From positions 26,056,144 through 26,120,143 of the forward strand of contig OX485809.1 of the NCBI GenBank assembly GCA_950295325.1: a DNA stretch of 64,000 nucleotides. The letters are read 5' to 3'. The stretch comes from Polytrichum commune. Its lineage: Eukaryota > Streptophyta > Polytrichopsida > Polytrichales > Polytrichaceae. This document shows, piece by piece, positions 6,930-49,862 of the stretch. The number at the start of each line of letters is the position of its first letter. Within the stretch, counting starts at the first letter, position 1. Below the pieces are notes generated by a model. It was given only the letters and a program-made list of their open reading frames with translations, had not been told where the DNA came from and made no database searches. The position numbers and the translations under genes were made by a program.

Positions 6930-8520
6930 CAAGTCTAGTTGTGAAGTTTTAATAAAAGCATTTGTAGCCGAGTTTCAATCCAAGCTACTTAACCCTACTA
7001 GGCTCCTTAGGCAATGTCTGTCAATCACCCGGAGAGAGTGTGCGCTCATATAGTGAAAGGGTACGAAAACTACAATCCAACATCGAAAAGAATGTCTCAA
7101 GAGGACCTGTAGGCAACGCTGTTGGGAATTGGTAGCTTTGTTTTGAAGAATTTTGTCTACAACTTACTGCCAACATTGCAAGAAATGGTCACGTTCACAG
7201 ATCCCTCAACATTTGACGAAGCTTTGACTGTTGCTCGACGCAAAGAGGACAACCTATTGTGCATGTCACCTATCAACCACCTATATATCAACTTACTTCA
7301 TTCAGATGGACCATCAACCACTGCTCCACCCATCCATCCACAACACAGAGTTATGACGCCGTATGCCTATGGTCGCAGGAACAATGCCCATACAACCCAC
7401 ACAGTATTGAGACCCATTTCCCCCATAGGTGCATTCGAGAAATGGGGAGTGGATTTTGTTGGTCCACTTCCAACCTCATCAAAGTGCAACAAGCACATCA
7501 TCGTTGCTGCTATTGACTACATGACAAATTGGGTTGGAGGCGGCCACTGTAGTGAAAAGAGGCACCCAGGAGGCAACTTCTGATATCATGTCCTCGCACA
7601 TCGTGTGGAGGAATGGTTGCCAATATGGAGAGATCGAGACAGATATGGGCTCACATCCTCGGGGGGGGGGGGGGGCAGTGTGTTAAAATGTTAATGATAT
7701 AGGTGCGAACAACCACTATTTTATAGGGGGGTATTACTTTCGATTCTCTTCTTTTTTTCACATGCTATCATAATTATGTAATTTTCTACTTTGGGTTAAT
7801 AGAAAAATGGCTTGCATTACTTACAATTCCAAATTACCTATTACTGCATACCCTATAGTACTTTAAAGATGTCCAGTGCCATTTTTGATACCCTATATTA
7901 CTCTTAAGTCCATTTATAAATTTTTGCCCCCATGTTTTTAAAACACCCTATCATTTGGCCGCACGTATATTGCTACTCCATCCAATGACTACCCCCCCCC
8001 CCCCGAGCTCACACTTTGTCAACAGGCTCGTATCAGCTTTGCTCCAACGAATGTCAGTGAAACACACGCAAGCGGGTGCTTATTACTTGCAAGCAAATGG
8101 GCTGGTGGAACGATCAAATGGAACAATGTGCAATATCTTGACGAAAATAGTCCAAGGTGACCGTCATGCATGGGATGAACACTTAAACGAAGCATTTTGG
8201 GCATACCAGACAGCTCTCAAAACCACTACAGTTTCACCCCTTTTCATTTAGCTTATGGTTTTGAAGTTGTTATTCCAATTGAGTTAGAGACTCCGTCTCT
8301 GAGAGTTGCTGTGGAGTATAACCTCATAGACGTGTCATTCCTGGAAGCTTGCTTGACCTTGCTGGAGGAATCAGACAAGGACCAGAGAAATGAAGTGATG
8401 CAAATACGGAGGAAAGTTGCACACGACAAATTGAGGAGGTGCATTGAGTTTCATGAAGGGGACTCGGTCATGTTGCGAGACAATTGGCTCATAAAGCAGA
8501 AGGAACATTATATTCGTTAA
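6930..8520 (+). pseudogene. Ty3/gypsy-type gag-integrase remnant, interrupted by a MITE
   Basis: Gag-like sequence at about 6950-7260 (AEFQSKLLNP, then a segment with FDEALTVARRKEDNL) passes directly into integrase-core sequence near 7430 (FEKWGVDFVGPLPTSSKCNK, then DYMTNW). Protease, RT and RNase H are therefore missing, pointing to an internal deletion. The integrase is cut at 7657 by a 350-bp MITE and resumes at about 8008 with HFVNRL, QANGLVERSNGT, AFWAYQTALKTT and, one frame over, FHLAYG. The order fits Ty3/gypsy integrase (central D, then E within the LVERSNGT neighbourhood). The copy is dead. Confidence 0.75.
7658..8007. mobile_element. Poly-G-ended MITE, copy 1
   Basis: This 350-bp element begins CTC followed by a run of G and GGCAGTGTGTTAA, and ends with ACTACC, a run of C and GAG. 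The ends are inverted (CTCGGGG.../...CCCCGAG). It interrupts the integrase remnant; the flanks CTCACATC and CTCACACT (7650-7657, 8008-8015) look like an 8-bp target duplication with two changes. The interior is nearly identical to 50971-51325. It has no coding capacity. The 8-bp duplication suggests hAT-type mobilisation. Confidence 0.8.
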
Positions 8521-8649
8521 ATTGAGACTTTTTGGGCATTTTGAGACATTCACATAAATAAGAACAAGGATAAATGGAACACATATTGGAGAAAGTTGTA
8601 AGATGCGAACACTTTGAAGCAGGTGTTTAGACCAAGAACCCCATAAATA

Positions 8650-8945
8650 ACTCATATTTGTGATGGTTTAGGGTGGGCAATCCAAATCTTAGACCACATT
8701 TAAGGGGAAACCTTAAAACATTCATATTATTGCACACAAAATATTAGAGCTTGTATGAATATGGTTTAGGTAGGGCAATCCAAACCATAGATCTTATTGA
8801 AGGGTTAATATGTTAACCAATATAATATTGCATACAAAATATTCCAAACTCATATTTGTGATGGTTTAGGTAGGGCAATCCAAACCTTAGACCATATGGA
8901 AGGGGAAATCATGTCTAACTTGTATTATTGCAAAAAAAAAACATA
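8650..8945 (+). repeat. Short tandem repeat, three units of about 100 bp
   Basis: Three diverged units each carry ATATTTGTGATGGTTTAGG (or a variant) and GGGCAATCCAAACC, followed by a run resembling TTATTGCACACAAAATATT. They start near 8654, 8752 and 8851. No gene is seen. Confidence 0.7.
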
Positions 8946-9089
8946 CAAAGTGTGGCATGTAAAATGCATATCATGCTAACACCACACATGCATTGGATAG
9001 TGCGACCCAAAATGTTCTTGCCTATGGCCCAAAACCCTACGCCTACTATGGCCTATCTAGCCTCGGATACTACCTCTTTTTCTTTTGCT

Positions 9090-9371
9090 TCATTTTCTTT
9101 TGCTTTTTTTTTCTTTTGCCTCTTTTTCTTTTGCTGCAGCTTCTTTTGCTCGCATTGCTTCAACATTCCTGAAAATCTCCGCCCCGCGACTATAGCCATT
9201 CTTGGGGTGAACGCCATCAATAACACATTTTGTATTCCGTCGGCCGCCCGAATTATACGACGAAGAATTCGAATACGATGAAGTGGACTGTCTTGCATTT
9301 CTGGTCATGGAGTAGAAACGCTCCAACTCGATGGACGCACTAGACCGCATAGGTTTACGGGTGGGAGCAAC
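9090..9371 (-). CDS. Terminal Lys/Glu-rich block downstream of phosphatase gene B
   Basis: It opens after a good acceptor (GCGTTGCAG^GTTGCTCC, exon start 9371) and ends at a stop at 9090. It has a Ser/Tyr/Asn-rich part, then SRGAEIFRNVEAMRAKE, then an AAAKEKEAKEKKSKRK charged tail that could form a helix. It is the counterpart of 2147-2518. Function unknown. The preceding exon could not be joined in phase with certainty: the obvious donor at 9508 is phase 2, while this reading frame needs phase 0. Confidence 0.5.
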   Translation of the reverse strand, partial: VAPTRKPMRSSASIELERFYSMTRNARQSTSSYSNSSSYNSGGRRNTKCVIDGVHPKNGYSRGAEIFRNVEAMRAKEAAAKEKEAKEKKSKRK

Positions 9372-9507
9372 CTGCAACGCGTCAACGCACGAACACATGT
9401 GTTAGTTTAGGGAGGAAGACCCAAACGTGTCACACATTCATTTTTTAAGTGCAAAATGATTGTAATGCGCGGATAACCATGTTTTTTTGGGGGGGGGGGG
9501 GGTTCAC

Positions 9508-9893
9508 CTTGTCACCGGGGGCGTTCCCGTCGGAGTTGGCGAGGAGGGGCAAGGCATCCCGCAAAGGAATAGGAAGGGTTCCACTCTTCGTAGGCCGAGC
9601 GTCCATCCGCAGCCGCCGTTGAGGTGTACTACTGCCGCCGGGCCGAGAGGGGGATGTCCGGACGCATTTGCGATTATGCCTTTGAGCGGTGACGGGGACG
9701 CAGATCGCCGGAAGATTTGCTTGGGTGGGGGGCTATCGACGACGCCGGCGTCAAGAGGCTCCTTGGAGTAGTCGATGGTTGACGCGGCGTCGTAAACGGT
9801 CTCGTAGAAGAAGCTCCCCAAGTCTGACTCGCTGACGACGTCAATCGAGGGCTCCAAACGCTGGAGCCAAAATTGGAACAAAACAAAACCCAA
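9508..9893 (-). CDS. Conserved Ser/Pro-rich block downstream of phosphatase gene B
   Basis: It is the counterpart of 1634-2068, sharing DAAS-x2-DYSK, AGVVDSPPPK and SASPSPLK. A possible acceptor lies at GGCTCCAG near 9861 and a possible donor AAG^GTGAAC at 9508. A run of 15 or more G (9489-9502) sits just downstream in the presumed intron. No known domain. It is either an alternative 3' exon of the phosphatase or a co-duplicated neighbour gene. Confidence 0.45.
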
Positions 9894-10003
9894 GGAAAAG
9901 GGGGGAGATAGAGCGCGTGAAAATCAAGATACATATGAAGCGTAAATTACACAAAATGGGTAGGCGCATATACACACACACACATACAAACACACGTACT
10001 GTC

Positions 10004-10816
10004 TCAAATGAGCTTGTTAAATTTCGCGTGAGATAACAACTCTCTGTACAAATGGTCTCGTGGATCCAAGTATCTCTCGCCTATGGGATTATTCCTAACA
10101 AAATTGTTTACGGGAAGTCCGCTTCCCCAGAGCGCCTGGAGGTATTTACTAAGGTCTAACAAAAATCGGTCCCGGACCTTCTCGACCGTCCACGTAGGGC
10201 ACACTATGAAGTTGGCCGTCGGGTTCAACATGTTCTTTGCGGCGCTGTCGTCCACCATGAGCGTGTTCTCGCGGGTGGGGCGGACGTCGTAGGGGACGCC
10301 TATCAAGGACGGTCGCTGGTCCCAAAAAATGGGCTTCAAGACCTTGAGGTATTGGGGGGAAGCGGGGTTGTTTGGTTTTTTGACGACTTTGCCGTCCTGT
10401 GTGTACAATATTCTACAGGCTTCCTGTGCTAGGACCATGCAGGGGGGCTCGATGCCCTTGAAGATGAACTCCACGACCGCATTGGTGTTCTCGGCCGTCA
10501 TGGAGCTCCACACGACCACCCACCATCGTTGTTGGGCGATCTGGAGGAAGGTCCGAAGCCACGGGCGGAGGTGAACTAGTTTGGTCTTTATGAACGTGGG
10601 CGGCCCGTCGTAATTAGCGTCCTCGGGCTTGCAAAAGGGCACCGTGGGGGTCCTAGGGCAATGAACGCATTGGACGAGGACCCCGTTCAGGTCTAACACC
10701 AGGAATCGTTTCTTCGGCAGCGGGGGCGGGGCGGGTAAAACCGGGGGCGCCGCCGCGCTGCCCTCTCCGCTCCTTGGGGAAGAGCGTCGGGGAGCCGCTA
10801 CGCTATGCTCCGAGCC
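10004..10816 (-). CDS. FCP1/NIF-like HAD phosphatase, gene B (main exon)
   Basis: The exon starts at 10816 after TATCCGCAG^GGCTCG; frame 0 is open from there, although no ATG begins the conserved part, so an upstream exon is expected as in gene A. After a Pro/Ala/Ser-rich linker comes motif I (FLVLDLNGVLV), then VVVWSSM and LMVDDSAAKNMLNP. The protein ends with HAKFNKLI and TGA, like gene A. Asn again replaces the second catalytic Asp of DxDxT, and the downstream blocks are also shared. It is transcribed towards gene A, giving a tail-to-tail pair about 8.5 kb apart. It is much more GC-rich than gene A. Likely a protein phosphatase; substrate unknown. Confidence 0.75.
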   Translation of the reverse strand, partial: GSEHSVAAPRRSSPRSGEGSAAAPPVLPAPPPLPKKRFLVLDLNGVLVQCVHCPRTPTVPFCKPEDANYDGPPTFIKTKLVHLRPWLRTFLQIAQQRWWVVVWSSMTAENTNAVVEFIFKGIEPPCMVLAQEACRILYTQDGKVVKKPNNPASPQYLKVLKPIFWDQRPSLIGVPYDVRPTRENTLMVDDSAAKNMLNPTANFIVCPTWTVEKVRDRFLLDLSKYLQALWGSGLPVNNFVRNNPIGERYLDPRDHLYRELLSHAKFNKLI

Positions 10817-11276
10817 CTGCGGATACGAGCGAGAGAAAACGGGGGCGACTTATGTCATGCTATGTCCAAACGAAGCATTAAGGAAACGAGCGTTCTCGGT
10901 GCAAACACAAAAGCATTTGATTCATTTTGGAGGGGGTGCAACAAGGGATACAAGGGATACAAGAGCATACAAAATACATTCAAACACAATATACAAGTAT
11001 ATAGGAGTCAAAAATGGTGATTATATTATATACAATGCTCTATGTACATCTTGATTGGGGGAGCCGCGTTGAACGATGCGTTCAAACTAGCCTACTTCTA
11101 CATCTAGAAAAAATTGAAGAGACGGGCCGCCGTGATGAAGACTTCGTTGCAAAGCCGGGGGTAGGTGGACGAACGAATGGTCGCTGGGGGTGACGAAGGG
11201 CGCGAGTGCCGGGGGGGGCCTAAGTTCGTCCTAGCTAGGGGACACGACCAAGGCAAGAAGTCAAAGACCCAGGAAG
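10817..11276. other. Upstream region of phosphatase gene B, no exon resolved
   Basis: This should hold the intron and first exon of gene B if it resembles gene A. No acidic GSQEDE-type exon was found. Contains a small ACAAGGGATACAAGGGATAC duplication near 10942. Confidence 0.3.
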
Positions 11277-11296
11277 TTTGGGTCGGCCGACCCAAA
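11277..11296. repeat. 20-bp palindrome TTTGGGTCGNNCGACCCAAA, centre GC
   Basis: A perfect copy of the family described at 16098-16981 and 20161-21273. It lies just beyond the 3' end of the ParB/methyltransferase-like gene. Confidence 0.95.
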
Positions 11297-11539
11297 CTGA
11301 GTGGGGTCAGTGCATTACCTCGCCTTGGTCGTGCCTTGATGACGTTGATGCCGGCATCGCGTGCGCTGCCCCACCTCTGTCACCGCCGCCTCCGACGACG
11401 CCGTCAGCCGCAACCTGCTCCTGCAAAGGCTGACTGTCAGGCCTTTGTCCCAACCCAACCTCCGCATGCGCATCATGCATTGGTTCATCGACTGGGTTAG
11501 GAGTAGAGGTATCACCAGGCCCTTGCGGGCCTTCAACAT

Positions 11540-14500
11540 CTAGCATAGGCTCGTCGACCGGGGTCTGATGGGGGACGGGGTTTGGGTCGGCCGACCCAAA
11601 CCCTGCTGCTTGGCGAGGGTCGCTCTGCGACGCTGCAACGTCGGCACTGTTTGGGTCGGACGACCCAAACATGTGGGGGTCGTCCCGCTGGTGGTGTGGG
11701 GGCAAGAGGATGGGAGGCCGGAGCGGGGGGGGGGTGCCAACGAGCTGGACGCTCCGGGGACGCGCCAAAGGTTTGGATCATCCACCTGCTGCACAGGCGC
11801 GTAAGGACGGGCGTGTGGCTGCAGCAAATCCGCGAAGCTGAAGGAATGCTCCAACGCCGGCCGCGGGCGGATATCCTGTGGAGGGAAGCCTGCGGGCAAG
11901 TGAGGGAATGAACTCGGGGGAGCCATCACCAATCCCTGCGCCAGCATGCCCTGGATCACTTGCGTGATGAGGTCCGCTTGGGACGGAGTTTGGGACATCG
12001 CCCTTTGCCGCTCCTGCTCCAACAGGAGAGCCCTCAACTCCGCGACTTCGTTGCGGACAGAGGGTTCCTCGGCGGCAGCCCTCTGCAGTCGCACACGCTG
12101 CTCCTCGTCTCGGAGCATTTTTGCGTTCGCCTCCTCCACGGTGAGGACCTCCGGTTTCACCCTCACATTCCCGGCGAACGCTCTGGGGGAGGCAGGATCA
12201 GACCTCAGCTTCTTGGCGAGTTCCATGTCGTCCTCGTCCTCGGAGCTTATTGCGATCGTCTCCTCCACCGCATAGTCCCCGTACAGCTTCTTCCCCTTCA
12301 TCCTTCTACGCTCCCTGAAGGTGGCCGTCGCGTCCCTCGAGTACATATCCTTGGCGTCGTCCACCGTCAACGCGGGCACCAGCCTGCTCTGCGGCGTGGC
12401 AGGCCGCATGGCCTTCTTCCGCTGAGGGGCCTCGGATTCTTGAGTGAATCCTGTTGCCCCTTCCTCCACCTCCCCCTCCACTTTCTCTGCTTCCTCCTCC
12501 GCCTCCTCCTCGTCTTCCTCCCCCTCCTCCCCAACCCTGCCACCTGCTCCCATAGACGGATTGCCCGGATGCAACCCGATGAGCGGCTCTGGCAATTGAA
12601 CGGGGGCCCGCATGGCGAATTCACCCGGGTTGATTCGCCTCGCAATATCCAAAGGATTCTCGCCCCCCTCGACGATCTCTTCGACGTAGGATCCGGGTAT
12701 CCAGTCGAGGATGTCCATTCTCTTGGCCAGCGCCTTTTGGGTCCTGTAGAATTGAACATCGGCATCCTCTACATAGGAGTAGATGTTCAACCCAGACATC
12801 TGCACAATCAAAATCAATACTATTAGTAACACCAAATGAACATATAATGGAAAATGACTTCCAAACAAAATAAGAATAGTTAGTTTGGGTCGCTCGACCC
12901 AAACTATGCATGGCCCTAGTTTGGGTCGAGCGACCCAAACTGTGCATGCCCCTAGTTTGGGTCGTTCGACCCAAACCGAACGTATAGGGACTTCTGGGTT
13001 TTCTGCTTACCATGGCTGCAAAAATCGGTTTGGACCCCCCGAAAACGTTGAAGATGCAGTCCCCTCTCTTCGTGAGGGTCCTCATCATCCGCAGGTAGAA
13101 CTCCATGCGCAGCTCATCCGCGGGGTAGTTGGCGTACTTCGCCTCGTCATATAAGCTCCTGCTGGTACCCAACCCTTCTTGGACTTGGAAGAGCTTTTCC
13201 ATCCTGGCTATGGGATGGTTTGGCACCTTAAGCAGCTCAGCTTTGTACACGAAGTACAAACACAGCACGTTGACGATCTTCGTCTTCTTGTCTTTCAGCG
13301 TGCTGTACGCCCCCTCCGCCGGTGCAGCAACGTAGTGAGATTTCGAGACGGCATACTCCGGCTGCAATTTGCGCACGATCTCGTAAACCTGCTCTGCCCT
13401 TCTGTCCTCGACAATCCAGAGCCAGACGTCGACCTCCCTGAATTTGGGGCTGGCGTAGTCCACGAACTTCGACAAGAAAGGATCGTAAAAAGGGGTGCTC
13501 ATAGTCCCCTCGAATGAGGCTCCAGGGATGTTCCTGAAGTCTATCATTCCGAAGGGGAAGCGGTCCCCGGCTCTAGTCCTGATCGCCTTCCTTGACTCAG
13601 AACCCGGCCAACCCTGGATCCTGAGAGGTTCGACAGTGACCATGTTGAATTGCGCATCGCCTTCGAAACTGACGATCTTCTTCTCCTTTATGAAGTTGGA
13701 GAAGGCCCGCACTGAGTGTTCGGGAAGCGCCCGGTTCCTCCCCCCCTTCACGAGCTTGGATCTGAGGAAGTCGTCTCCCGCCTCCCTCATGAGTGCCGCC
13801 ATGGACGCACTGGTAAACTTATATTCGGCTTTGAAGGCCCTCCAGTGCGCCTCGTCGACCTCTCCGTCCACGATGAGCTTCTTCTCTGGCACAAGCTTGT
13901 GCAGCTCCTGGACGATGGTCGTCTTCTTCTTCCTGTTCTCCGTCCATTCCTTCATTGTGTAGCATGAAGGGACGAAGATCTTGGGTTTGGTGAAGACGAT
14001 CTTAGGGTGGACCCAGCATCTCTTCGCCGTCGTCTCCACGTGTAGGATGTGGGACGCCGCTTTTCCCATCTCTGTCTCGGAGAGACCTTGAAGCGCTCTG
14101 AAGAACTCCCTCACCAGAGGCTTCATTTGCTTGAAGCGCGTAGTCTGGTTGAAGAGCATGCCGGTGTCGGGGTCCATGAGGTCCCCCGTCTCGTGTTTTT
14201 CAAAAACACTCTTCCATCTTGCCCATACGGAATCGGACGCTGTGATCAAATAGATTTCTCCTCTCAGCTCGTTATACTTTTTCTGCTTGTGGCTAGCATT
14301 GTCGATCGAGGAGAATTTATTGATCATTTGATATTTGAAGTCCTGCACAGGAAGACATTAGCACATGTTAGACAACACATAATGGAAAAACAAATGCAAC
14401 AGCAGTTTGGGTCGAACGACCCAAACTATGAACCTGGCGAAAACATCTTAACAATTTCAGAGTTTGGGTCGACCGACCCAAACTATGAACCTGGGGACAA

Positions 14501-15931
14501 TATCAAAATAATTTCAGAGTTTGGGTCGACCGACCCAAACTATCAACCTGGCGATGACAACAAAACAATGTAGGAGTTTGGGTCGATCGACCCAAACATA
14601 CTCACCTCCCATTTGGGGTTCTTGTCTTTAGCATTCTCCCTTTCCTTGGGAGGCCTTCCATAAAACTCCCACACCTCCCTCGAGGCCATGATGTTTCTGA
14701 TCCACGATGCCTGATAGGCCCTCTTTTTGTTCCCCATGTTGAAGAACCTGGAGATGTCGCTGAGGACCGTCTCGTTGTCCGACCAAACCACCAAAGCCTT
14801 CCAAACTTTTAGCTTCTCCTTCTGGTTGTTCGGGTCGTCCCACTCGGTCATCAGCTGGATTTTTTTCGAGGCCTCCACACTGTGCTGCCCGTCAATCAGC
14901 CAGAAGTCTCCTTTAGAGATTGCCGGCCACATCTCAGGCGTCGGCATTCTTTTCAGCCCTTGTGGCATGACAACAATTGTCTGCCTGTCGTCCTTGAACT
15001 GCCCGCCCAAGATTTGAGCGACCATCCAGTCGACGTAGGCGTCCTCCTTGGCTCGGACGCACTTCTCTGGTGGCGCAAGGTGGCACTGCGCAATGTTGAC
15101 CTCGAATTTGAAGTCCCTGCCCATGAAGAAGCAGTGCAGGCATTTTGTCTCGAAGTTGTTGTTTATTTTTTGTATTTCGCCTGCATCCACCTCTTGGCCA
15201 GGCTTCGGCATCCGGAGCTCCGGGGAAACAGGCTCGTCAGTCATCCCCGATGACTCTCTTCCCCTCTTGGAAGGGGTCGTCTGACGGCTTCCTGATGGCG
15301 TTGGCGTCTCGCTGTCAGCCGGCGTTGTTGTAGTGCTCGTCCGTCTCGAGTCTGCAGGGACCGCCCGCGGTTTCCTCACAGTTTGTGGTCTTGAGGACCC
15401 TGCGCCTTCTTCCGTCGTTGCCTTCCGCCTCACAGGCTGCTGCGTCTTGGGTTTGCTTTGCAGCGCCTTGTTGAGAACCGTGATAGCCTGTTTTAACTTC
15501 GTGAACCTGCTCGCAACCTTCGTGTTCGTTACACTACCATCTATGAATATGGCCTCCGGTTTTATGGTTTCAGGGTCGACGCAAGTCTCCTTGGCGTACA
15601 GGGGGTCGAAGGGCTCGGAGAACTGGTGCATGAACATGTGGACGTTCTGCACGGCGGAGTTCTCCAGTATCACGTCTACGTAGTCCCCGAGAGACTGGAC
15701 GGACGCAACCTCCCATCCCGTCAGCGTTGCCCAGGTGTGCTGCTCGTGGGTCCCCACCTTCACCACGAATAGCAGCTTGAACATGGATGCCTTCACCACC
15801 TGAACGGACCATGCCAAAACGACGCCATCTTTTGGGACGTAAGAATCGTCCTGTGGAGTTTCATACTCCTGCCAAAGGTGGTCTGGCGCGAGCATGAACC
15901 ACCTTTCACCTGGTCTCTTTTTAGGGGCCAT
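11540..15931 (-). CDS. ParB/sulfiredoxin-like plus DNA-methyltransferase-like fusion protein (three exons)
   Basis: Exons 15931-14606, 14342-13011 and 12799-11540 join in phase 0 at each junction (donors GAG^GTGAGT and ATG^GTAAGC; acceptors TGTGCAG^GAC and TGTGCAG^ATG), giving about 1305 aa. Start ATG (MAPKKRPGER) follows TTGCAG directly, so a 5' leader intron is likely. Around residues 340-365 FWLIDGQHSVEASKK resembles the ParB/Srx nuclease-fold motif. The end of exon 2 and start of exon 3 resemble methyltransferase motif I in its C-terminal (beta-class) position: RGDCIFNVFGGSKPIFAAM, then NIYSYVEDADVQFY in place of the usual IGIE-x-D-x-x-Y. I see no DPPY/NPPY/SPPY catalytic motif, so activity is doubtful. 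Exon 3 continues with a Glu-rich stretch and a Pro-rich tail. ParB-methylase fusions are known to me from phages and bacteria. Both introns are built from 20-bp-palindrome repeats. Confidence 0.6.
11581..11600. repeat. 20-bp palindrome, centre GC, inside coding sequence
   Basis: A perfect copy within exon 3 of the ParB/methyltransferase-like gene; it reads LGRPTQT in frame. Confidence 0.95.
11650..11669. repeat. 20-bp palindrome, centre GA, inside coding sequence
   Basis: A second copy within exon 3, again reading LGRPTQT in frame. Arms are perfect; only the central dinucleotide differs from the copy at 11581. Confidence 0.95.
12884..12975. repeat. Palindrome array in intron 2: three copies, 36-bp period
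   Basis: Perfect 20-bp palindromes at 12884, 12920 and 12956 have centres CT, AG and TT and are separated by 16-bp spacers (first two spacers similar, TATGCATGGCCCTAG-like). The array fills much of the 211-bp intron (12800-13010) of the ParB/methyltransferase-like gene. Confidence 0.95.
14406..14596. repeat. Palindrome array in intron 1: four copies, 57-bp period
   Basis: Perfect palindromes start at 14406, 14463, 14520 and 14577 (centres AA, AC, AC, AT), exactly 57 bp apart, with spacers of the type CTATGAACCTGGCGA...TTTCAGAG. They make up most of the 263-bp intron 14343-14605. The last copy lies only 8 bp inside the splice donor. Confidence 0.95.
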
Positions 15932-16097
15932 CTGCAATCCAAGAAATCGAAACTGTGAGTTTCGGTCGATCGACCCAAAGTATTGCAATGTGCATTTAAC
16001 ATTTGGAGGATTGACCCAAACATTTACTTAATTTTCAAAGTCGTTTTAAAAGATCTTTTAGATTTTAAAGTGTGGTTTAGGTGGTCACCCTGTAATG

Positions 16098-16981
16098 TTT
16101 GGGTCGAGCGACCCAAACATGATGAGGCTGCAAATTTAGGTATCTCAACACATTCATTTCAGACTGCAATGTTTGGGTCGAACGACCCAAACAATTACTT
16201 AATTTTGGAAGTTCTTTTATATTTTACAATGTGGTTTAGTTCTTCTCCCTGTAATGTTTGGGTCGAGCGACCCAAATATGTTAGGCTGCAAATTTAGGTA
16301 GCTCAACCCATTCATTTCAGACTGCAATGTTTGGGTCGAACGACCCAAACATTCACTTAATTTTCAAAGTTCTTTTATATTTTACAATGTGGTTTAGTTC
16401 TTCTCCCTGTAATGTTTGGGTCGAGCGACCCAAATATGTTAGGCTGCAAATTTAGGTAGCTCAACCCATTCATTTCAGACTGCAATGTTTGGGTCGAACG
16501 ACCCAAACAATTACTTAATTTTCAAATTTCTCTTTTATTTTACAATGTGCTTTAGTTCTTCTCCCTGTAATGTTTGGGTCGACCGACCGAAACATGTTAG
16601 GTTGCAAATTTAGGTAGCTCAACCCAATCATTTCAGACTGCAATGTTTGGGTCGAACGACCCAAACATTCACTTAATTTTCAAAGTTCTTTTATATTTTA
16701 CAATGTGGTTTAGTTCTTCTCCCTGTAATGTTTGGGTCGAGCGACCCAAACATGTTAGGCTGCAAATTTAGGTACCTCAACCCAGTCATTTCAGTCTGCA
16801 ATGTTTGGGTCGAACGACCCAAACATTTACTTAATTTTTGAAGTTCTTTTATATTTTACAATGTGGTTTAGTTCTTCTCCCTGTAATGTTTGGGTCGAGC
16901 GACCCAAACATAATGAGGCTCCAATGTTTGGGTCGCTCGACCCAAACAAGAGGCTGCAATGTTTGGGTCGAACGACCCAAA
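16098..16981. repeat. Palindrome array upstream of the ParB/methyltransferase-like gene, 158-bp period
   Basis: Thirteen palindromes. Eleven form a regular two-palindrome unit of 158-159 bp with spacings of about 74 and 85 bp: starts 16098, 16172, 16257, 16330, 16415, 16488, 16573, 16646, 16731, 16804 and 16889. Centres alternate AG and AA, with one AC at 16573, which also has an arm mismatch. Two further copies follow at 16927 (CT) and 16962 (AA). Decayed relatives flank the array at 15960 and 17036 and a half-site at about 16012. The array lies in the presumed 5' intron of the gene. Confidence 0.95.
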
Positions 16982-17175
16982 CATTTAGTTCATTTTAGGC
17001 TGCAATTCAAATATTTATTATATTTTAATATGAGTTTGGGTCGTCTCCCCAAACTACTGTGTTTCCAGATGCATGTTTAATGCTTGGGCAACATATACAA
17101 TGCTTATGCATTGTATATGTAACAGGAACCTAAAGGGAATGATGCAAATTGTGTGCACTGATGCAAATTGCTTAC

Positions 17176-17800
17176 CTTGTCTTTCAAACTCTTGAAAGCT
17201 GCTCTCACAATCTGCTTCTTACAACCAGACTCAGAAACTCTGTTGTGGCACTAAAGAACAACTCTCACAAAGATCTCAGAAACACAATGAATCTCTCAAG
17301 CACCCTAAAACTTTCTCACAAACCCCCTGATTCTTGCAAACTCAGGCCTAATTTGAAAGACCTCTACCTTTCTATCACACTCGACCGTGCTCACTTCTAC
17401 TCAACCTAAAATCACTCCATGCATGAATTTTACAAAACAAGTAAGGAGTTCAACACAATAAACCGCTCCGAACTCACTCAAAGCTAACACTCTGGACCAA
17501 GAAGAGAGAATAAGAAGAGGAAGACAATAACACGAGGAATAGAATGAGAGAAGAGGAGGAGAAGCATCAGAGAGGAGGAGAGGAATGAAGGAGAAAGAAG
17601 AATGAAGGGAAGCGGCGCGACCAAGACAAAAGCAAAAGGTGCGAGAGGAAGCGCTTGGCGCGGCGCTATGGAAAGCGGCGGCGGCGTTTCCAAGAGCGGC
17701 GCTTGGCGCGGAGGAAGAGAGGAAGAAAAAGAGAGAAAGAAAAAAGAGGAGGGGAGAGAAGGAGAGAGCGGAAGGGGTCACCCTAAACCCTCGAATCCGG
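17176..17800 (-). promoter_or_regulatory. Possible 5' leader exon and promoter of the ParB/methyltransferase-like gene
   Basis: On the minus strand 17770-17500 is strongly pyrimidine-rich (CTCTC/TTCTTCC), typical of plant 5' leaders. A good donor, GACAAG^GTAAGC, ends a candidate leader exon at 17176. It could pair with the TTGCAG acceptor just before the ATG at 15931, making an intron of about 1.2 kb that contains the 158-bp array. No start codon or long frame is obvious in it. Confidence 0.35.
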
Positions 17801-17835
17801 GCCATTAGATTGCGCCGGGCCCATCAACGGCTCAG

Positions 17836-17904
17836 AAGCCTCGCGGGCCAACACCTTGCCAGGTGTCGACACCTCCTTGGTTTAGGTGGTTGCCCGCGAG
17901 GCTT
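17836..17904. repeat. GC-rich hairpin with an inner palindrome
   Basis: AAGCCTCGCGGGC (17836-17848) is perfectly inverted at 17892-17904. The loop contains the 14-bp palindrome AGGTGTCGACACCT (17861-17874). It lies at the presumed promoter end of the ParB/methyltransferase-like gene. It could form a cruciform or be the end of a small transposon. Confidence 0.8.
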
Positions 17905-19440
17905 GTGGTGTTGACACCTGCCACCCTAGGGAGATTGCCTTCCTGGTTGTCCTTGCCCCTAGGTGCGGGACATAGGAGGGCCGGCGCCTCTCTTGGCCGC
18001 CCGGCCCCGGCCTTCTAACCCGCTATTCATTAGCGGCAATTCAATACCAGTCAAAAACCTACGTGGACTAAGGTATTCCACAAAATTAACACCATCACCA
18101 ACTCATATTTTAATGGTGTTCAATTGAATGATCACCCGTTGGAATTGATAACATCGTTGAATGTAGCCATTATCGTTTTGGTGTATGAATAATGTAATTT
18201 ATGGAATCATATGAGAGTGTTACAAAGTCTAAGAGGAGTAAGTCATAATTATATTGCAATCCACAAAGGCAATTACACGGTGCAATAATATAAATATGGT
18301 AACCATTCACATGGTTAACAGTTTAGGATTATGTATTGTAATTTATATGATGGTTGTTGGTAGAGGACAATGCTCTAGTCTATAATGGATACCCTAACAA
18401 GTAGCATTAGAGTGAACATTAATATATGTACTTAGAAGTTCACATTTGAAGTACATGGGAGAAACAAATGATTACAAATGTATCTACTGCAACCCCATGG
18501 AGTTCACATATCATATGAAGTCATTTAAACATTCAGTTTGATGTTTGATGATGCCTGAACCCTAAACCCTAAACCCTAAACCCTAAACCTTAAACAACAC
18601 AAACCATAACTGGATGGCACATAGGTCAAATGACATGGGCCTTGGTGCTTGTAGTTTCCAATACAAATGTATATTGTCATCACAACATCCTAATTCACAA
18701 ACGTGAAAGATGGATGTGTGGTTTTTCACGAATGAACGCACTAAAGGAAATAAACGATATTGTGCTCACAAGTAGGTGATACAATATTAACCTATAACCT
18801 TGTCACCTGGTAAGAAAAGCATAAGAACTAGATTATAATGGATAGGATGTTGTTCATGTTAACATGTTATTTGGAATAGTGAAATATTATATATTAATTT
18901 AAAGTAGATTTCATGTTGTGAATGATATGAGGACATACCTTTTGAACTTTGCATGTTTTGCTCACACACATTGGTAGAGTTCAAGGGACTTCACGATAGG
19001 TTCAAACATCCTTGGAAGATTGAACGTGCCAAATGTCATTTGTGGTTTAGGGTTCCATTAATGACTTCCACATAGGTACTAGGTTATTGTCACACTTGGA
19101 GTCTTGAGGATGAAGCAATATTGGGTGCACACATTACAACACAACATATGTTCTTTTAATTAGCAGAAATTGAAAGTTGGCCAAATTATTCAAGTTTGTC
19201 ATGGCATTAATTATTTGTTTTCAAAATATAAGTCCTCATGTGAGAGTCTAAATAATAGCATTAACTATTATATTTAGTGACTTTTAGTATATGAAGTTTT
19301 ATAATACATGCACATCTTTTGTCAATATATTGTTTGAAATATACCATAATGTTTGACTACAAGTAGAGTAAAACCCCTTAATAGATATAATCTTACATAT
19401 TGTCATAGGGTTATTGGTATTCAGTGTATGCGTTCATATG
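17905..19440. other. Intergenic, AT-rich; no gene seen
   Basis: A GC-rich shoulder (17905-18020) is followed by AT-rich sequence without convincing open frames. The only marked feature is the telomere-like tract at 18558. Confidence 0.5.
18558..18594. repeat. Interstitial telomere-type repeat (CCCTAAA)n
   Basis: Four perfect CCCTAAA units plus degenerate flanks. It is the Arabidopsis-type plant telomere motif and supports a plant-lineage origin. A tract this short is common inside chromosomes and near plant promoters (telo-box). Confidence 0.9.
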
Positions 19441-19790
19441 TAGTGTATCAAAACCTTTATATCCTTTTTAGTTATATGATAGTTAGTGTTTGATACACTT
19501 AAAACGAACGCATACACTTCCCATTACTAACCCTATGAGAGTAAGTAACATTAAATGTAAACTCAAACACTAAATATCCACTATGGTGATATATGGAAGT
19601 TACATATAGGGATTTAGTATTAGTAAGGATGTGAGAAAAATATACAACAATGATAAAAGGAGAAAGGAGATGGCAATAGGGAAGGTGGTGGTGTATTCAT
19701 GTATAAAACTAATTATGAAAGAGTTGAAGAATAGTGTTGACCAAGTTAGGGTGGTAACAACTTTAAATATATGTTGAATTATTCATTTGG
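19420..19790. mobile_element. Foldback plus MITE related to 63602-63862
   Basis: About 50 bp at 19405-19457 (CATAGGGTTA...GTGTATGCGTTC...GTGTATCAAA) recur inverted at 19490-19545, making a foldback. From about 19493 the sequence matches the MITE at 63602-63862 in direct orientation (AGTAAGTAACATTAAATGTA and the segment following). Boundaries are approximate. Confidence 0.55.
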
Positions 19791-19938
19791 TGGTTGGGGC
19801 AACGAAGAGCCAAGCTAAATATACATTCTCTATTATTGACAAGAAGCGGGAAATTGAGTCAGAAGGTTTGAATTAACATCCAAAGGAGACCAGGTGGGAA
19901 AGGCATCCAAAGAGGATGCCCAAAGCGGAGGCGGGTAG

Positions 19939-19945
19939 TATAAAG
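19939..19945 (+). promoter_or_regulatory. Candidate TATA box
   Basis: TATAAAG in a GC-richer setting upstream of the 78-bp array and the DUF7869-like gene. No transcription start is known, so the link to that gene is a guess. Confidence 0.2.
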
Positions 19946-20160
19946 AGCCCAACCCCCCCAAATGCTGGTTCTTTCTTTCATGTCCCAATCCTGAGATTGC
20001 TGCAAGCTCTCTAAGTTGGAGCTGTAATACACGGTTTGTATACGCTTCCATTCATGAGCAGCTAATTACAACAAGCATCTATGAGTTCAGTTGTCCCAAA
20101 TAGGTTATAAATAGATTAATAGAGCATCACCCGAATAAATAGGCGGATTTTGCGGAATTG

Positions 20161-21273
20161 TTTGGGTCGGTCGACCCAAACCCAGCCTTACAGTGTGGGT
20201 GCTCTCTGTATTGAGCCAGAACCCATCCTGCCTCAAGGTTTGGGTCGATCGACCCAAACCCAGCCCTACAGTGTAGGTGCTCACTGTTGTGAGCCTGAAC
20301 CCATCCTGCCTCATGGTTTGGGTCGATCGACCCAAACCCAGCCCTACAGTGTGGGTGCTCACTGTTGTGAGCCTGAACCCATCCTGCCTCATGGTTTGGG
20401 TCGGTCGACCCAAACCCAGCCTTACAGTGTGGGTGCTCTCTGTTGTGAGCCTGAACCCATCCTGCCTCATGGTTTGGGTCGATCGACCCAAACCCAGCCC
20501 TACAGTGTGGGTGCTCTCTGTTGTGAGCCTGAACCCATCCTGCCTCATGGTTTGGGTCGATCGACCCAAACCCAGCCCTACAGTGTGGGTGCTCTCTGTT
20601 GTGAGCCTGAACCCATCCTGCCTCATGGTTTGGGTCGATCGACCCAAACCCAGCCCTACAGTGTGGGTGCTCACTGTTGTGAGCCTGAACTCATCCTGCC
20701 TCATGGTTTGGGTCGATCGACCCAAACCCAGCCCTACAGTGTGGGTGCTCACTGTTGTGAGCCTGAACCCATCCTGCCTCATGGTTTGGGTCGGTCGACC
20801 CAAACCCAGCCTTACAGTGTGGGTGCTCTTTGTTGTGAGCCTGAACCCATCCTGCCTCAAGGTTTGGGTCGATCGACCCAAACCCAGCCCTACAGTGTGG
20901 GTGCTCATTGTTGTGAGCCTGAACCCATCCTGCCTCATGGTTTGGGTCGATCGACCCAAACCTAGCCCTACACTGTGGGTGCTCACTGTTGTGAGCCTGA
21001 ACCCATCCTGCAAAAAGGTTTGGGTCGCTCGACCCAAACCCAGCCCTCTAAGTGTGGGTGCTCCCTGTCGTGACCCAAAACCCATTCTGCCAAAAGGTTT
21101 GGGTCGCTCGACCCAAACCCAGCCCCTAAGTGTGGATGCTGTCTGTAGTGAGCCTAAACCCATCCTGCCAGAAGGTTTGGGTCGCTCGACCCAAATCCAG
21201 CGCCTAAGTGTGGGTGCTCTCTGTATTGAGCCTGAACCCATCCTCCCAAAAGGTTTGGGTCGCTCGACCCAAA
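20161..21273. repeat. Fifteen-unit, 78-bp tandem array of the 20-bp palindrome
   Basis: Palindromes start at 20161, 20239, 20317, 20395, 20473, 20551, 20629, 20707, 20785, 20863, 20941, 21019, 21098, 21176 and 21254. Centres in the first eleven are AT or GT; in the last four they are all CT, and spacer sequence changes with them (CTCATGG/CTCAAGG spacer versus CAAAAGG-type). Each unit is palindrome plus about 58 bp (CCAGCCCTACAGTGTGGGTG...). Because 78 is a multiple of three and the unit lacks stops in several frames, long repetitive open frames arise on both strands; these are not taken as genes. The array ends about 200 bp before the DUF7869-like coding region. Confidence 0.95.
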
Positions 21274-21487
21274 CCCAGCCTCTAAGTGTGGTTGGGATCT
21301 GGGTGCCGGTGTGGCCACTGGCCTTCCGAAACCTTTACAAGCCCAATGGCATAGCAGTCATATGAACTTGTATGAGCACTGAGTATTTGCAATTTTGTTT
21401 ATATATGATGGTTTTTTTGTTCTTCGATTTGAACCTACAATTTTTGTGATTTTAAGACAATGTTCAATGTTCATGTGTGTAGGCAGA

Positions 21488-24400
21488 ATGGATGGGTTTA
21501 GTGAAATAGGGGATTGGTCATCTGATGACATGGCCACTTGGCCATCTGCATCTGATGATGACCTAGACATTGTCGGGGAGGCTACTATGGCTGACAGTGC
21601 GGATGAAGATCATTTGGATTTACCTTCGTCTTCCGTACCGCAGTGTCCCATTGTTGAATGTACGGGACTTTCAAGGGCTTCGTGGGTGAATTTGGAGGTG
21701 ATACTTCTTAACGATAGTGGAGTTGTTGTGGCGGAGGGGATTTGCCGTAACACCCATCCGCAAGATTGCATTGATGAAAACCCGCTTGGCACTGAGGACG
21801 TTGGGGTTGTCATATTGGAGTCGGTCGTTCATTCCGAGGTGGATCCCACTCATAGGTTCTCCCTCCGCAGGTGGCCATTGAGGAATGTCACAATTGATGG
21901 AGTTAGCTTGCGTGAACATGAGCAACGACACATGCAAATCGAAAAGGAGGTGCAATCAAACATGCGGCCGCGCAAGGGTCAAAGAAAGTACGATACATTG
22001 GCACGTCCTGCTCCGTCTGCAACTGATTGTAAACGTCAAAGGTTGCTCGGGGAGGAGTCCATTAGAGAAGTTGCCACAAAGGATTGTTGTGTGCATCGTT
22101 GTTGCCAATTGTTTCCAAGGGATAAATTGAAGGTCATCTGCGAAGAAATGTGGCTTGGAGATTTCCGTCTAAGATCCACAAGAAAACTTGATGTCCATAG
22201 GGCGATACATGTGAATGGGACGGGTCGCAAGGTCATCACCATTGAAAGCATAGACGTGTGTTGTAAGGCATGGTACACCATTCACGGTGTGTCGAAATCG
22301 GACTTTTATAGACAAGCTGCTTATGCCAAGGAAGGCCGCCGGTCCCGTCACCATGGTAACGTGGGTTTAAAGAAGCCTAGGGAAGCAACAAGGCAAGCAA
22401 CGGCCACTCTAGCAACCATCATTGTCCCTCTTGCCGATGCAATGCCGCACAAAACACGCACACTCACAACCGGTGAAAAGGTTGTGGAGAAAGTTCTTCC
22501 CACAGGCACAAAATGGAAAGACATATTGTTGGACGTTAATGCAGTTGGCGAGAAGATTGGGTTGGAGCCAATTTCATTGTCAAAATTGAGTGCAATCAAG
22601 AAACAAAACTTTAGCGAATACATTACAAAAAGACGAGGGGACAAATTTGCCAGGTGCTCTAATTGCGAGAAGTTGAAGCGCCTCCGGGATGCACACACGA
22701 TGGGCACCGAGTCATATGCAGCGCATCAATTGAACTATTTCAAGCACGTAAACATGCAAGAGGCACACCGTAATGATTACTACACAAATAGAGCTTTGTC
22801 CATCTCCAGGCCCTTGGAGGTTCTTACGGTCATCCATGACAAAATGGACCATGCCAAAACAGCCTCCCCATGTTTTGCAAATCGAATCAAGGCCACGGAT
22901 GGGTTTTTCAAGTTGCCTGTATCGGTTACAGGTGAACTTCGAAACAATGTCATGACATACCCTAAATGTTGTTGTATTTTATTCCGTGATGTACTGGAGA
23001 ACATGGATTCCTTCATAATGGTTTATTCATACATAGATGCTAATCACGTTGGGTTGGCATTGCAGGAATGATTGCACATGGACACGGTGATGTCAAATTT
23101 GCTCATTATGCTCTTGATTTGTATCCAGCGGATTCAAACCACACGATAGGATCATTTGCAAGGCTTTTACGTGATTTAGAGAAACCACCAGCCTATTCTT
23201 CAGGATTGTTATTTGAGAACACGGGTTCAACACCTTTATATGAAGCGGTGTTGGATGGAAAAGATGTATGCTTGCATTCGTTGCCCGAGCCACCCAATGA
23301 ACCCGTGATTGCCAAGAAGTTGCCTCCAACTTTGCGTGTCCAATTGGACAATTGTGCCAAGGACAATAAAAGCAGATATGTATTTGCATATTGGTCGTTG
23401 TTGGTTGCGAAAGGCATTTTCAAGGAGGTTTTTGTGTCCTTCCTATTGGTAGGCCACACGCACGATGATATTGATGCATCTTTTGGGCGGTGGAGCATGA
23501 AGTTGCGGGAGGAGGATTTCCCTACAATTCCATTATTGATGAAGTCGTACATGGATTTGGAGAACGTTCCCGTCATCCCCCATATGATTGAGGAGGTGCC
23601 AGACTTCAAGGCATTTATAGAACCTTATATTCGAAGTGGAGCTCACCGATTGATCGGGCATACGAAGGCACAACAATTCCGCTTCTATATGCGTGACGAT
23701 GGTGTCCCGGCCATGCAATACAAGTTGTTGTGCACGTCACAAGACTGGAGCCCGCCGGAGGGTCTTCTTGTGTGGCGCGTGGATGCGGATGGAAAGACCA
23801 TGTTACCGGATGGGGAGCCTAGGCCTTGTAAGCCAATAGCCATGAAGAATTTGGAGGATATTTTGAAAGGTATATCAGGCTTCATACAATATTGGGAGAG
23901 TTTGAAAATAGCGGATGTTGGCGGATCATGTTGGCATCGTTATGGGAGTTGGATACATTATTGGACACGTGTTCGTGCCGCCTTGGCAGACCTCCACCAA
24001 GATAGCCCTCATACTTTGAGGCATGGATTTTGGCCACAAACACGAGTCGATGTACAAGCTTCAGAGCCTAGTCTTTTGGGAAATGGAGAGGTTCGAGAGG
24101 AGTTTGATGTGGACGACCATTACGTGGGGCCTGCTAGTAGTCGTCCCCCACCATCTTTCCGCATTGCAGTGGATTGTCATGAAGGTTATATGCTCATTTT
24201 GCGTCCTGGAGACGAGACATATGCGAAGCCAGTGTGGGTGGCAAGAGCTTTGTCCAATCCCAATTTTGTAACTTCCAGCCCTCATTTTCGACAAATACAA
24301 GTGGAGTACTATCGACCGACAGTAAGGAATGAAGATGTGATTCGGCATTATACAGGCTGGGATACAAACCCTAACTTTCGGTGGAAGGTGGATTCTGAGC

Positions 24401-24552
24401 ACGGTCCATCTTGGGTAGATACAGATTCCATATTCATAGCATGGAAACCACGGAAACACCATAGTGGATCAGTGTCCATCCCTCAAAAGTACATAACTTT
24501 TGCAAAAGACAACCTTGCTCGGATTGCAGAAGAAGCAACCCACGTTGAATGA
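21488..24552 (+). CDS. DUF7869-like, transposase-like protein (two exons)
   Basis: Exon 1 21488-22931 and exon 2 23066-24552 join in phase 1 across a 134-bp intron (GTTACAG^GTGAAC, TTGCAG^GAATG), restoring an uninterrupted 976-aa frame. Without splicing the first frame ends at 23071. The start at 21488 (MDGFSEIGDW) was chosen because an acidic N-terminus begins there; an upstream exon is possible since TGTGTGTAG lies just before. Features: Cys-x2-Cys in RCSNCEKLKRLRDAH, then LDNCAKDNKSRY and FLLVGHTHDDIDASFGRWS. I recall the latter pattern from DUF7869 proteins, which are repeated in algae, oomycetes, cnidarians and early plants and resemble RNase H-fold transposases. A DDE role is inference. 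The intact frame suggests a recent or expressed copy. No terminal inverted repeats were found around it. Confidence 0.7.
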
Positions 24553-25291
24553 GAAGTTGGTAGGATTGTGTTAGCATGATTATAGTTTAATACGTAATTA
24601 TAGCAATATAAATTACACATATGTGTGCTCTTCAAAATTGGGGCAGAGTTTGGGTAGAACTTACGAATACTATATTGTTTGGAGTTGGATGAATATCCAT
24701 TTACTATATTTCAAGCTGCAATTGAAGTTCATCTTATTATTATGCTTGGGACTATATTCTCGAATGAAGAAACATGCATTTATTACATGCACTTTGTATG
24801 TTGCAATGTCTATATTCTATTGAACATGCTAATAATAGAAATCATTTTATATATATTTTTGGGTGAAACTTGTTTGAAGTGCTCTACCCAATGTGTTTTT
24901 GTTGATGAAGTTGGTGTCGAGTGCTCTACCATATGTGCTTATGTCCGCACATCATAGATTTGGGATATTAGAACATATAATATAATTGAGATTGTTGACA
25001 ATATAGTTTCGGGCCTCTTCAAGTTCTTTGATCCATATATTAATTTGAGACTAGAGAAAGTCTCAATTTAACGAATATAGTGTTAAGGGGCAGAAGTTTT
25101 GACCCCGTTGGGAAGGTCCCTTTCAAGTTGCAGAGAAGTATGATAATGGGTTGTATAAATTGTCTACTATGGAGGGAGAATTGACAGACCGTCACGTGAA
25201 TGGGACCAAACTGAAGATCTATTCTATCCGTGTGTGACATTTGGATGCCGAATAGGTTGTTTTCAATGATCAATATCAGTCCTTGAGGTGA
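24553..25291. other. Intergenic, no gene seen
   Basis: AT-rich 3' flank of the DUF7869-like gene with only short frames. A GTGCTCTACC motif occurs twice near 24880-24930 (about 45 bp apart). Confidence 0.5.
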
Positions 25292-34300: not shown

Positions 34301-34505
34301 AGAACCGAAACATGTCAACATGTAACCGGTTGGACTTGGATACATTAGGATCTCACCCAATTATGCCCACAATTCTGTGACAAAACAGATACCAAATGCG
34401 AAGGAAATGTTCAGAGAATCCAACCATTCATCTTATGGTCTCTCACTTTCACACTGCCGAAGTTTACGTTTGAAAGCAATGGGCTGGCTAGGGTACAAAG
34501 TGACA
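31330..34505 (+). repeat. ORF-bearing satellite, nine units of 341-391 bp
   Basis: CATGTCAACATG marks units near 31472, 31863, 32211, 32577, 32920, 33263, 33604, 33945 and 34312. Later units settle to 341-343 bp. Each contains ACCGGTT-type motifs and GAATCCAACCATTCATC. At least four units keep an 83-88-codon frame starting MSTCNR or MENRNMSTCN and ending EPVEFEK. The peptide has no recognised domain and the frame is broken in other units, so translation is doubtful. Single related copies occur at 27460-27800, about 44160-44360 and 63005-63140, suggesting that a dispersed transposon seeded the array. Confidence 0.85.
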
Positions 34506-42279: not shown

Positions 42280-43310
42280 GGAAATACAACCCCCCTGGCC
42301 AGAGTCTTACATTGCTAATAAATGTGTTTTGCATCCGCTTAGGAGCACATTGCCGGTGCAGCACACGAAAATAGGAACACGTTGCCGCTTTGGAGTAACC
42401 CCATCCTGTTCTTTCTGTCGCCTTTACTGCAGCTTTAACGCTAGGCTTGTGCTGAATGGTGATCAGGCTAACCAACATAATCAGACAGCTTTCGAAGTGG
42501 AGGCCCTAATCTCCCTCGCGGTGATCGCAAGTTTTATTAGGAGCACATTGCAATCGACACAGCTGGAGCTCAACGTTAATAGGATCACGTTGCGGTTATG
42601 GATGGAGCTAAACCCCTTCCTGTTCTCACTGTCACCTTCACTGTGCAGCTTAGGCTTGTGTGGAATGGTGATCAGGCTAACTAACATAATCAGACAGCTT
42701 TCGAAGTGGAGGCCCTAATCTCCCTTGCGGTGATCACAAGTTTTATTAGGAGCACATTGCAATTGACACAGCTGGAGCTCAACGTTAATAGGATCACGTT
42801 ACGGTTATGGATGGAGCCAAACCCCTTCCTGTTCTCACTGTCACCTTTACTGTGCAGCTTAGTCTTGTGCTGAATGTTGATCAGGCTAACTAACATAATC
42901 AGCCCTGCTTTCGAAGAAGGGGCCCTAATCTCCCTTGCGATGCTCACAACTTTTTTGAGGGGCACATTGCGATTGAAATTTGACACAGCTGGAGCTCGAC
43001 GATGATAGGATCACGTTGCGGTTATGGATGCAGTTAACCCCCTTCCTGTTCTCACTGTCACCTTAACTGCAGCTTAGGCTTGTGCTGAATGATGCTAAGG
43101 CTAACTAGCATAGTTGGATTTGTTTCGAAGATGAGGCCCTATTAATCTCCCTCGCGGTGCTCACAAGTTTCATTAGCAGGACATTGCGATTGACACAGCT
43201 GGAGCTCAACGGTAATAGGATCAAATTGCGGCTATGGATGGAGTAACCCCTTCCTGTTCTCACTGTCACCTGACTGCAGCTTTTGCTTGTGGTGAATGGT
43301 GATCAGCCTA
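42280..43310 (+). repeat. 210-bp tandem repeat, about five units
   Basis: TTCGAAG...GAGGCCCTA recurs at 42490, 42699, 42909 and 43123 (intervals 209-214 bp). Each unit has AGGAGCACATTGCAATTGACA, GGATCACGTTGCGGTTATGG and a CCTTCCTGTTCTCACTGTC block. The first unit is more diverged. Open frames in it are a by-product of the repeat. A remnant follows at 43795-43910. Confidence 0.85.
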
Positions 43311-43314
43311 AAGA

Positions 43315-49299: not shown

Positions 49300-49862
49300 T
49301 AATCCAGCTGCCCCTTAGTAAGCTGGTCGCAGCTAACCTTACCAGGCTGGCCTTAGTCCCCTTAGTAGTCTGTCGCAGCTAACCTTACTAGGCTGGCCTC
49401 AGTCCCCTTAGTAGTTTGTCGCAGCTAACCTTACTAGGCTGGCCTCAGTCCCCTTAGTAATTTGTCGCAGCTCCTTAGTAGTCTGTCGCAGCTAACCTTA
49501 CTAGGTTGGCCTCAGTCCCCTTAGTAATTTGTCGCAGCTCCTTAGTAATCCCTGTTGTCGCATCTAACCTTACTAGGCTGGCCTCAGTCCCCTTAGTAAT
49601 TTGTCGTAGCCCTTAGTAATCTCTGCTGTCGCAACTCCTTAGTAATCTGTCGCAGCTAACCTTACTAGGCTGGCCTCAGTCCCCTTAGTAATCTGTCGTA
49701 GCCTTTAGTAATCTTTATTGTCGCAGCTAACCTTACTAGGTTGGCCTCAGTCCCCTTAGTAATCTGTCGTAGCCCTTAGTAATCTCTGTTGTCGCAGCTA
49801 ACCTTACTAGGCTGGCCTCAGTCCCCTAAGTAATTTGTCGCAGCTCCTTAGTCAGCTAATTT
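49300..49862 (+). repeat. Minisatellite: alternating CTTAGTAATCTGTCGCAG and GGCTGGCCTCAGTCCC modules
   Basis: Units contain CAGCTAACCTTACTAGG, CTGGCCTCAGTCCCC and TTAGTAATTTGTCGCAG. Spacing between GGCTGGCC (or GGTTGGCC) copies varies from about 45 to 90 bp because the CTTAGTAATCTGTCG module is present once or twice. At least eight units. Confidence 0.9.

Follow-up and report, generated by a model that had tools for sequence, protein, structure and literature searches.

What maintains a 20-bp palindrome with nearly constant arms in dozens of copies, and what such copies serve, is the question raised by a 64,000-nucleotide stretch of the Polytrichum commune genome (assembly GCA_950295325.1, contig OX485809.1, positions 26,056,144 to 26,120,143, forward strand), referred to below as the window. 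The palindrome, TTTGGGTCG-NN-CGACCCAAA, has two 9-bp arms around a two-base centre. Its window copies belong to a DNA transposon, termed here family A; the same palindrome occurs in a second element (element B) without detectable coding similarity to the first, and in the families related to element B (families B to E) the type of palindrome follows the clade of one gene. The favoured reading, to which a probability of about 0.5 is given as a whole, is that the arrays would be docking sites of a transposon-encoded symmetric DNA-binding protein that keeps regions of the element open against silencing.

The preliminary description of this DNA had counted about 38 copies at 11.3–21.3 kb and almost none in the rest of the window, and both observations hold: 37 exact copies were found, all between 11277 and 21273, together with two one-mismatch copies at 15960 and 16573. 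No match was obtained in 100 dinucleotide-preserving shuffles of the window, the 10-bp-arm form was not found at up to two mismatches in the last 38 kb (26–64 kb), and a single three-mismatch match lies at 8992. A genome-wide search with the centre left as NN, covering 408 Mb in 64 contigs, returned 9,731 exact copies and 0 for a control pattern, so the palindrome is not local; with these copies, and with its presence in sister families and in element B, it is not confined to one recent segmental duplication. Mutated arms, whose equal frequency elsewhere had been named as a point against the claim, are found in a minority of copies (2,788 with one mismatch among 12,519 matches with at most one). 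The invariance ascribed to the 9-bp arms is thereby confirmed in part: arm sequence is constant across arrays whose spacers and unit lengths differ, but one-mismatch copies exist throughout the genome, and in 35 of the 39 window copies the arms measure 10 bp owing to an extra G...C outside them, which makes 22 bp the usual unit.

The gap between the arms is exact and the centre is constrained. When gaps of 0 to 12 bp were permitted, 9,731 of 9,905 genome matches had a gap of 2 bp, other gaps accounting for 174 (1.8%). The nine centre values reported earlier (AA, AG, AC, AT, CT, TT, GT, GC, and GA) are all present in the window, where neighbouring copies differ in centre; the centre is not free, however, since pyrimidine-purine steps (CA, TG, CG, and TA) occur in just 38 of the 9,731 exact copies, every one of them being CA/TG. 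In a tally of 153 exact copies, read directly and with near-identical copies counted too, the centres were AC/GT in 57, AG/CT in 37, AA/TT in 27, and AT in 19, more rarely GC (8), GA/TC (4), and CC/GG (1), and the missing classes were exactly the three pyrimidine-purine ones. Such a constrained centre suggests a symmetric protein that reads the shape of the DNA. Transitions at the inner CpG represent 4 of the 54 possible single changes, yet they make up 26% of the one-mismatch copies (734 of 2,788; 359 + 375 on the two strands, a count that may include a few double changes); with this excess the copies appear to decay as methylated DNA would.

That the window palindromes lie within a transposon goes beyond the preliminary description (coordinates are given in Table 1). 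In blastn comparison with three other family A copies, 94.7–99.9% identical over the aligned pieces, the match was found to end at window positions 8504 and 25083–25087. Fourteen family A copies were inspected for target duplications; both ends were within the fetched pieces for 10 of them, and identical 4-bp flanks were present in 9 (AAGG in the window copy; ATTT, AAAT, CTAA, CTTA, ATTG, TAAA, ACTT, and TATA in the others), the exception being C6:9.46M. The putative transposase was recognised by a PF25273 (DUF7869) match on the open reading frame (ORF) 23044–24552 (E 1.1e-42), the first ORF of this gene (21383–23071) gave no family match in profile searches, and no published literature on DUF7869 was found. 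Family A is considered to have been active recently, because about 30 protein matches at 99–100% identity were obtained genome-wide for each of two queries, exon 1 of a predicted three-exon gene (87 scored of 1,118 candidates) and the DUF7869 ORF (85 scored of 1,867). The insertion site reads as a gypsy-like pol fragment with one half on each side, the family matches there being insignificant; the halves occupy 7113–8503 and 25085–25240, with a stop in the continuing frame of the right half.

Within the transposon, predicted introns and upstream regions hold 36 of the 39 sites, the splice sites of the three-exon gene being predicted from sequence and frame. The sister families L008 and L009+L010, whose proteins are 66–92% identical to those of family A (44 and 54% in two short pieces), have the palindrome in the corresponding regions, and subfamilies L066 and L067 also retain it. 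In the sisters the array before the DUF7869 gene proceeds mostly in steps of 56–66 bp versus 78 bp in the window, and no blast match longer than 150 bp was found on this array between them and the window. In L009 two 3′ sites encode FGSxDPN within one 499-aa ORF with the arms exact; since exon 3 of the window does not stay in the L009 frame, the counterpart there forms an ORF of its own. Degenerate relatives of the palindrome were seen by eye at window 8649–8908, 9404, and 17033 (for example, GGTTTAGGTAGGGCAATCCAAACC), those near the left end including three 98–100-bp units, and a telomere-like CCTAAAC at 18554 is distinct from the palindrome in sequence.

The same palindrome was found in about 32-bp units at two loci of element B, L007 (C1:470–480 kb) and L011 (2.153–2.163 Mb). 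In a translated search of the family A ORFs against the 24-kb piece M1 (L012+L011+L013) all matches fell on palindrome arrays, a result that holds for the A ORFs as queries. The palindrome is shared by elements without detectable coding similarity. Of the two targets offered in the preliminary description, recombinase and binding protein, the latter is well supported by this sharing, by the 2-bp gap, and by arms that are constant amid differing spacers and unit lengths. The putative transposase of M1 differs from that of family A and is SWIM-like (Pfam E 0.076, under the cut-off), while another gene of M1 encodes a DGNH segment and, after it, an end that resembles methyltransferases (phrog_67, E 2.8e-7; PF01555, E 4.6e-4, which is below the cut-off). 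The A-palindrome arrays of M1 are situated upstream of the DGNH gene and between two transposase ORFs, the latter place being probably an intron. In the same group of loci, L017:3-1948 contains ORFs that are CACTA-type transposase-like by eye, upstream of a B gene with the B palindrome only, and C1:462001-480000 (L014+L007) holds 27 C4 palindromes (at most two mismatches) beside A and B palindromes, which suggests nested elements of several families.

Further loci related to the element B exon were sampled across its diversity (33 loci: L007, L011, L015–L034, and L055–L065), with about 2.4 kb of upstream DNA examined for most of them. A palindrome was found near the gene in 27 of the 33, where base-shuffled sequence leads one to expect 0–1 perfect palindromes with arms of at least 8 per locus (means of 5 shuffles). 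The types were CCCTGTGCG-TTAA-CGCACAGGG in clade B, GGTTTCGG-GA-CCGAAACC in C1, GCCTCGG-AT-CCGAGGC in C2, TGTGTTTCGG-TC-CCGAAACACA in C3, GTGTCTCGG-NN-CCGAGACAC in C4, AATCCCACGG-AT-CCGTGGGATT in D, CACCCTCTCGG-NN-CCGAGAGGGTG in E1, and GAGGCCTCGG-AT-CCGAGGCCTC in E2; in all of them the CG near the short centre is constant and the outer arms vary by clade. A protein tree of 33 rows and 157 columns accommodates the 8 motif types with 8 changes, the minimum possible being 7, whereas shuffled labels needed 16.7 on average and never fewer than 13 (300 shuffles); after thinning to 20 rows the figures were 8 changes versus a shuffled mean of 11.5, with 0 of 300 shuffles as low. The motif therefore goes with the clade of the gene. 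The E1 core was counted at 2,064 exact copies across the genome, and dense E1 runs over 5–7 kb, mostly with AA/TT centres, were noted at C1:16459012-16465963 and C1:24591148-24595686. In L061:95-340 and L066:2915-3160, which belong to different families, several further palindromes are held in common in opposite order, including GCCATGAGCT...AGCTCATGGC and GCTGTCCCGGGACAGC.

According to these data a symmetric and probably dimeric DNA-binding protein would recognise the palindromes by sequence and dock on them, at places distributed across the transposon's introns and upstream regions. That the sites are bound by a protein is very likely, and that the elements themselves encode the binder is likely, since the symmetric sites, the exact gap, and the clade-wise changes of the arms point to a dimeric element-encoded protein. 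With rather less assurance, yet still as the better bet, the binder is placed in the gene that tracks the motif, for which reason it is the best candidate: in families B to E this would be the gene with a putative ParB-like segment, followed in B by an N4/N6-methyltransferase-like end, and in family A the three-exon gene, chosen for its position, its DGQH motif, and a weak ParB-like match that is also seen in B–D. We infer the link of the family A gene to the B–E protein family at motif level only, and the odds that the segment has a ParB fold are put at about even. The families would evolve their own outer arms, and the CG beside the short centre would stay.

The last step of the reading is that the bound protein would protect these regions from being closed by host silencing, in the way that VANC acts on the VANDAL elements of Arabidopsis. 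It is put forward tentatively, at slightly worse than even odds, because the sites resemble the VANC motifs in lying in introns and upstream DNA, in growing as tandem arrays, in differing between families, and in recurring in an unrelated element. The VANC motifs are tandem, lie in introns and upstream non-coding DNA, are family-specific, and are also present in the unrelated element AT9TSD1 (PMC5735166); YAGTATTAY and AGTTGTCC/AGTTGTAC, as given there, are short and not palindromic (PMC5735166, PMC10398659), whereas the sites described here are palindromes of about 20 bp whose centre is exact. Further differences of the window transposon are its 4-bp target duplications and its DUF7869 gene. 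The family profile search matched no VANC-related family among the window genes, no direct VANC sequence comparison having been made. Mutator-like elements produce 9-bp target duplications, and the 4-bp length is that of Sola-type DNA transposons, to which family A is likened in this respect, the gene match here being DUF7869. A further parallel exists in fungi, where DNA transposons encode TET/JBP dioxygenases to which an action on methylation silencing is attributed (PMC12730594); no dioxygenase was recognised among the window element ORFs searched.

Several results weigh against this reading. The ParB-like profile phrog_1033 matched exon 1 of the family A gene at E 0.23 and the B–D group at best at E 0.098, in 2 of 9 members, neither being significant, and in hhalign comparison of the A gene with the B–D gene the probability was 1.2%, so that homology is unsupported. 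Pfam gave one insignificant match for 9 ORFs of L007 and L011, searches of solved structures (PDB) gave no ParB or methyltransferase match, and a single-sequence structure prediction of the putative ParB-like segment from the window reached a predicted local distance difference test (pLDDT) score of 33 and was not used. On the side of the motifs, 6 of the 33 loci (L019, L024, L028, L032, L061, and L063) had none by the set criteria, although a shorter palindrome, TTCAAATTGATTTGAA, occurs eight times in L061 and L028 has one C1-like site at two mismatches; the labels for the tree test were assigned by hand; C2 and E2, distant on the tree, have a palindrome in common; one E2 label (L062) sits among E1 loci, contrary to a simple one-to-one picture; and in D there is a single palindrome per locus, in near-identical copies. 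The centre rule of family A is not general, because TA is the centre in 13 of 23 C4 copies and one CA centre is found among the E1 sites listed. Finally, the A palindrome is present in 6 of 11 family B loci, and some B elements with A sites may use the A factor.

Other searches were likewise negative: Pfam found no family match for the three-exon gene, family profile searches none for the methyltransferase-like end of its exon 2, NCBIfam matches were all far below cut-off, and no relative was confirmed among the viral contigs and bacterial and archaeal genomes scanned.

A doubtful elaboration of the docking-site reading is that ParB-like, methyltransferase-ended proteins with parS-like arrays form a captured-partition-like module, which would load, spread, and keep the element open, and whose arrays transposons of unrelated type would take over from one another so as to profit from the factor; each family with its own palindromic arrays and the constant CG core would then represent a modular site-recognition system of eukaryotic transposons. 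Bacterial ParB-parS is a partition system, and the likeness consists in a palindromic site beside a gene for a putative ParB-like protein; the differences are that here many-site arrays stand in a eukaryotic element that is integrated and is not known to have a role in partition, that the ParB likeness is weak, and that the family B protein has a methyltransferase-like end.

The main rival, which is considered unlikely, assigns the sites to a host DNA-binding protein (an activator or insulator) and supposes that several transposons copied them, the clade pattern being that of inherited regulatory regions. A and B having one palindrome in common without detectable common genes, and C2 and E2 another, would be explained in this way, and because motif and gene sit on the same DNA, common descent by itself should produce part of the motif clustering on the tree. 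To serve at least nine palindrome types that share a CG core, however, the host would have to supply many factors or a single very lax one, and between related clades the arms change quickly around an unchanged core.

It is quite improbable that the sites are bound by the element's own transposase for transposition, in the manner of the subterminal repeats that CACTA elements use. Transposases do bind repeated short motifs within their elements, and the DUF7869 gene is preceded by one of the arrays; but the sites are internal, with at least 2,773 bp between them and the left end and at least 3,811 bp between them and the right, and element B has the same palindrome with another putative transposase, on which two grounds terminal transposase sites were rejected. 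A neutral satellite or an RNA-hairpin by-product of slippage, to which tandem arrays with variable unit number would conform, is very improbable and was rejected in view of the nearly fixed arm sequence and gap amid changing spacers and unit lengths, a hairpin moreover accepting compensated arm changes and needing a loop longer than 2. The recombinase target of the preliminary description, suggested by symmetric arms flanking a possible 2-bp crossover, is scarcely credible and was discarded, since centres of neighbouring sites do not match, hardly any centre is a pyrimidine-purine step, the element ORFs that were searched yielded no recognisable recombinase family, and the sites form internal arrays.

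If the docking-site reading is true, the palindromic sites and their apparently different proteins would make up a second anti-silencing system and indicate that the strategy is a repeated one; to our knowledge, VANDAL elements are the only transposons described in detail as encoding anti-silencing that is sequence-specific and has motif arrays co-evolving with it. No published description of the palindrome system was found by titles and the beginnings of abstracts, in a coverage outside which most subscription journals fall. With nine palindrome types, this one genome would offer a natural series of protein-site pairs for recognition rules, and the arrays common to unrelated elements a testable case of one genomic parasite exploiting the factor of another.

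Table 1. Family A transposon of the window and the features inside it (window coordinates).
Feature	Position	Strand	Remarks
DNA transposon family A, 16.58 kb	8504..25084	.	holds all window palindromes; blastn vs 3 other copies, ends and flanks
4-bp target duplication AAGG	left 8500..8503, right 25085-25088	.	
Left terminal inverted repeat, 28 bp	8504..8531	+	window copy one base off other copies
Right terminal inverted repeat, 28 bp	25057..25084	-	
NIF-type phosphatase-like ORF	10004..10849	-	PF03031, E 2.7e-15
Exon 3 of three-exon gene (predicted)	11540..12799	-	frame diverges from that of sister L009 before end
Exon 2 of three-exon gene (predicted)	13011..14342	-	methyltransferase-like motif at end, by eye only
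Exon 1 of three-exon gene (predicted)	14606..15931	-	DGQH motif; candidate family A binder gene
DUF7869 gene, putative transposase	21383..24552	+	ORFs 21383-23071 and 23044-24552
Palindrome cluster 1, 3 copies	11277..11669	.	3′ end of three-exon gene
Palindrome cluster 2, 3 copies, 36-bp units	12884..12975	.	predicted intron 2
Palindrome cluster 3, 4 copies, 57-bp units	14406..14596	.	predicted intron 1
Palindrome cluster 4, 14 copies (2 with one mismatch), 158-bp double units	15960..16981	.	upstream of three-exon gene
Palindrome cluster 5, 15 copies, 78-bp units	20161..21273	.	upstream of DUF7869 gene

Among the remaining features, the NIF-type phosphatase-like ORF is kept in the sister L009 at 76% identity. 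Outside the transposon, tandem arrays occupy 31923–34503 (343-bp units), 42442–43311 (209-bp units), and 49311–49852 (46–163-bp units), and between 52001 and 62000 the GC skew is +0.19 to +0.63 and the AT skew reaches -0.36, that is, the strand is G+T-rich over about 8–10 kb.

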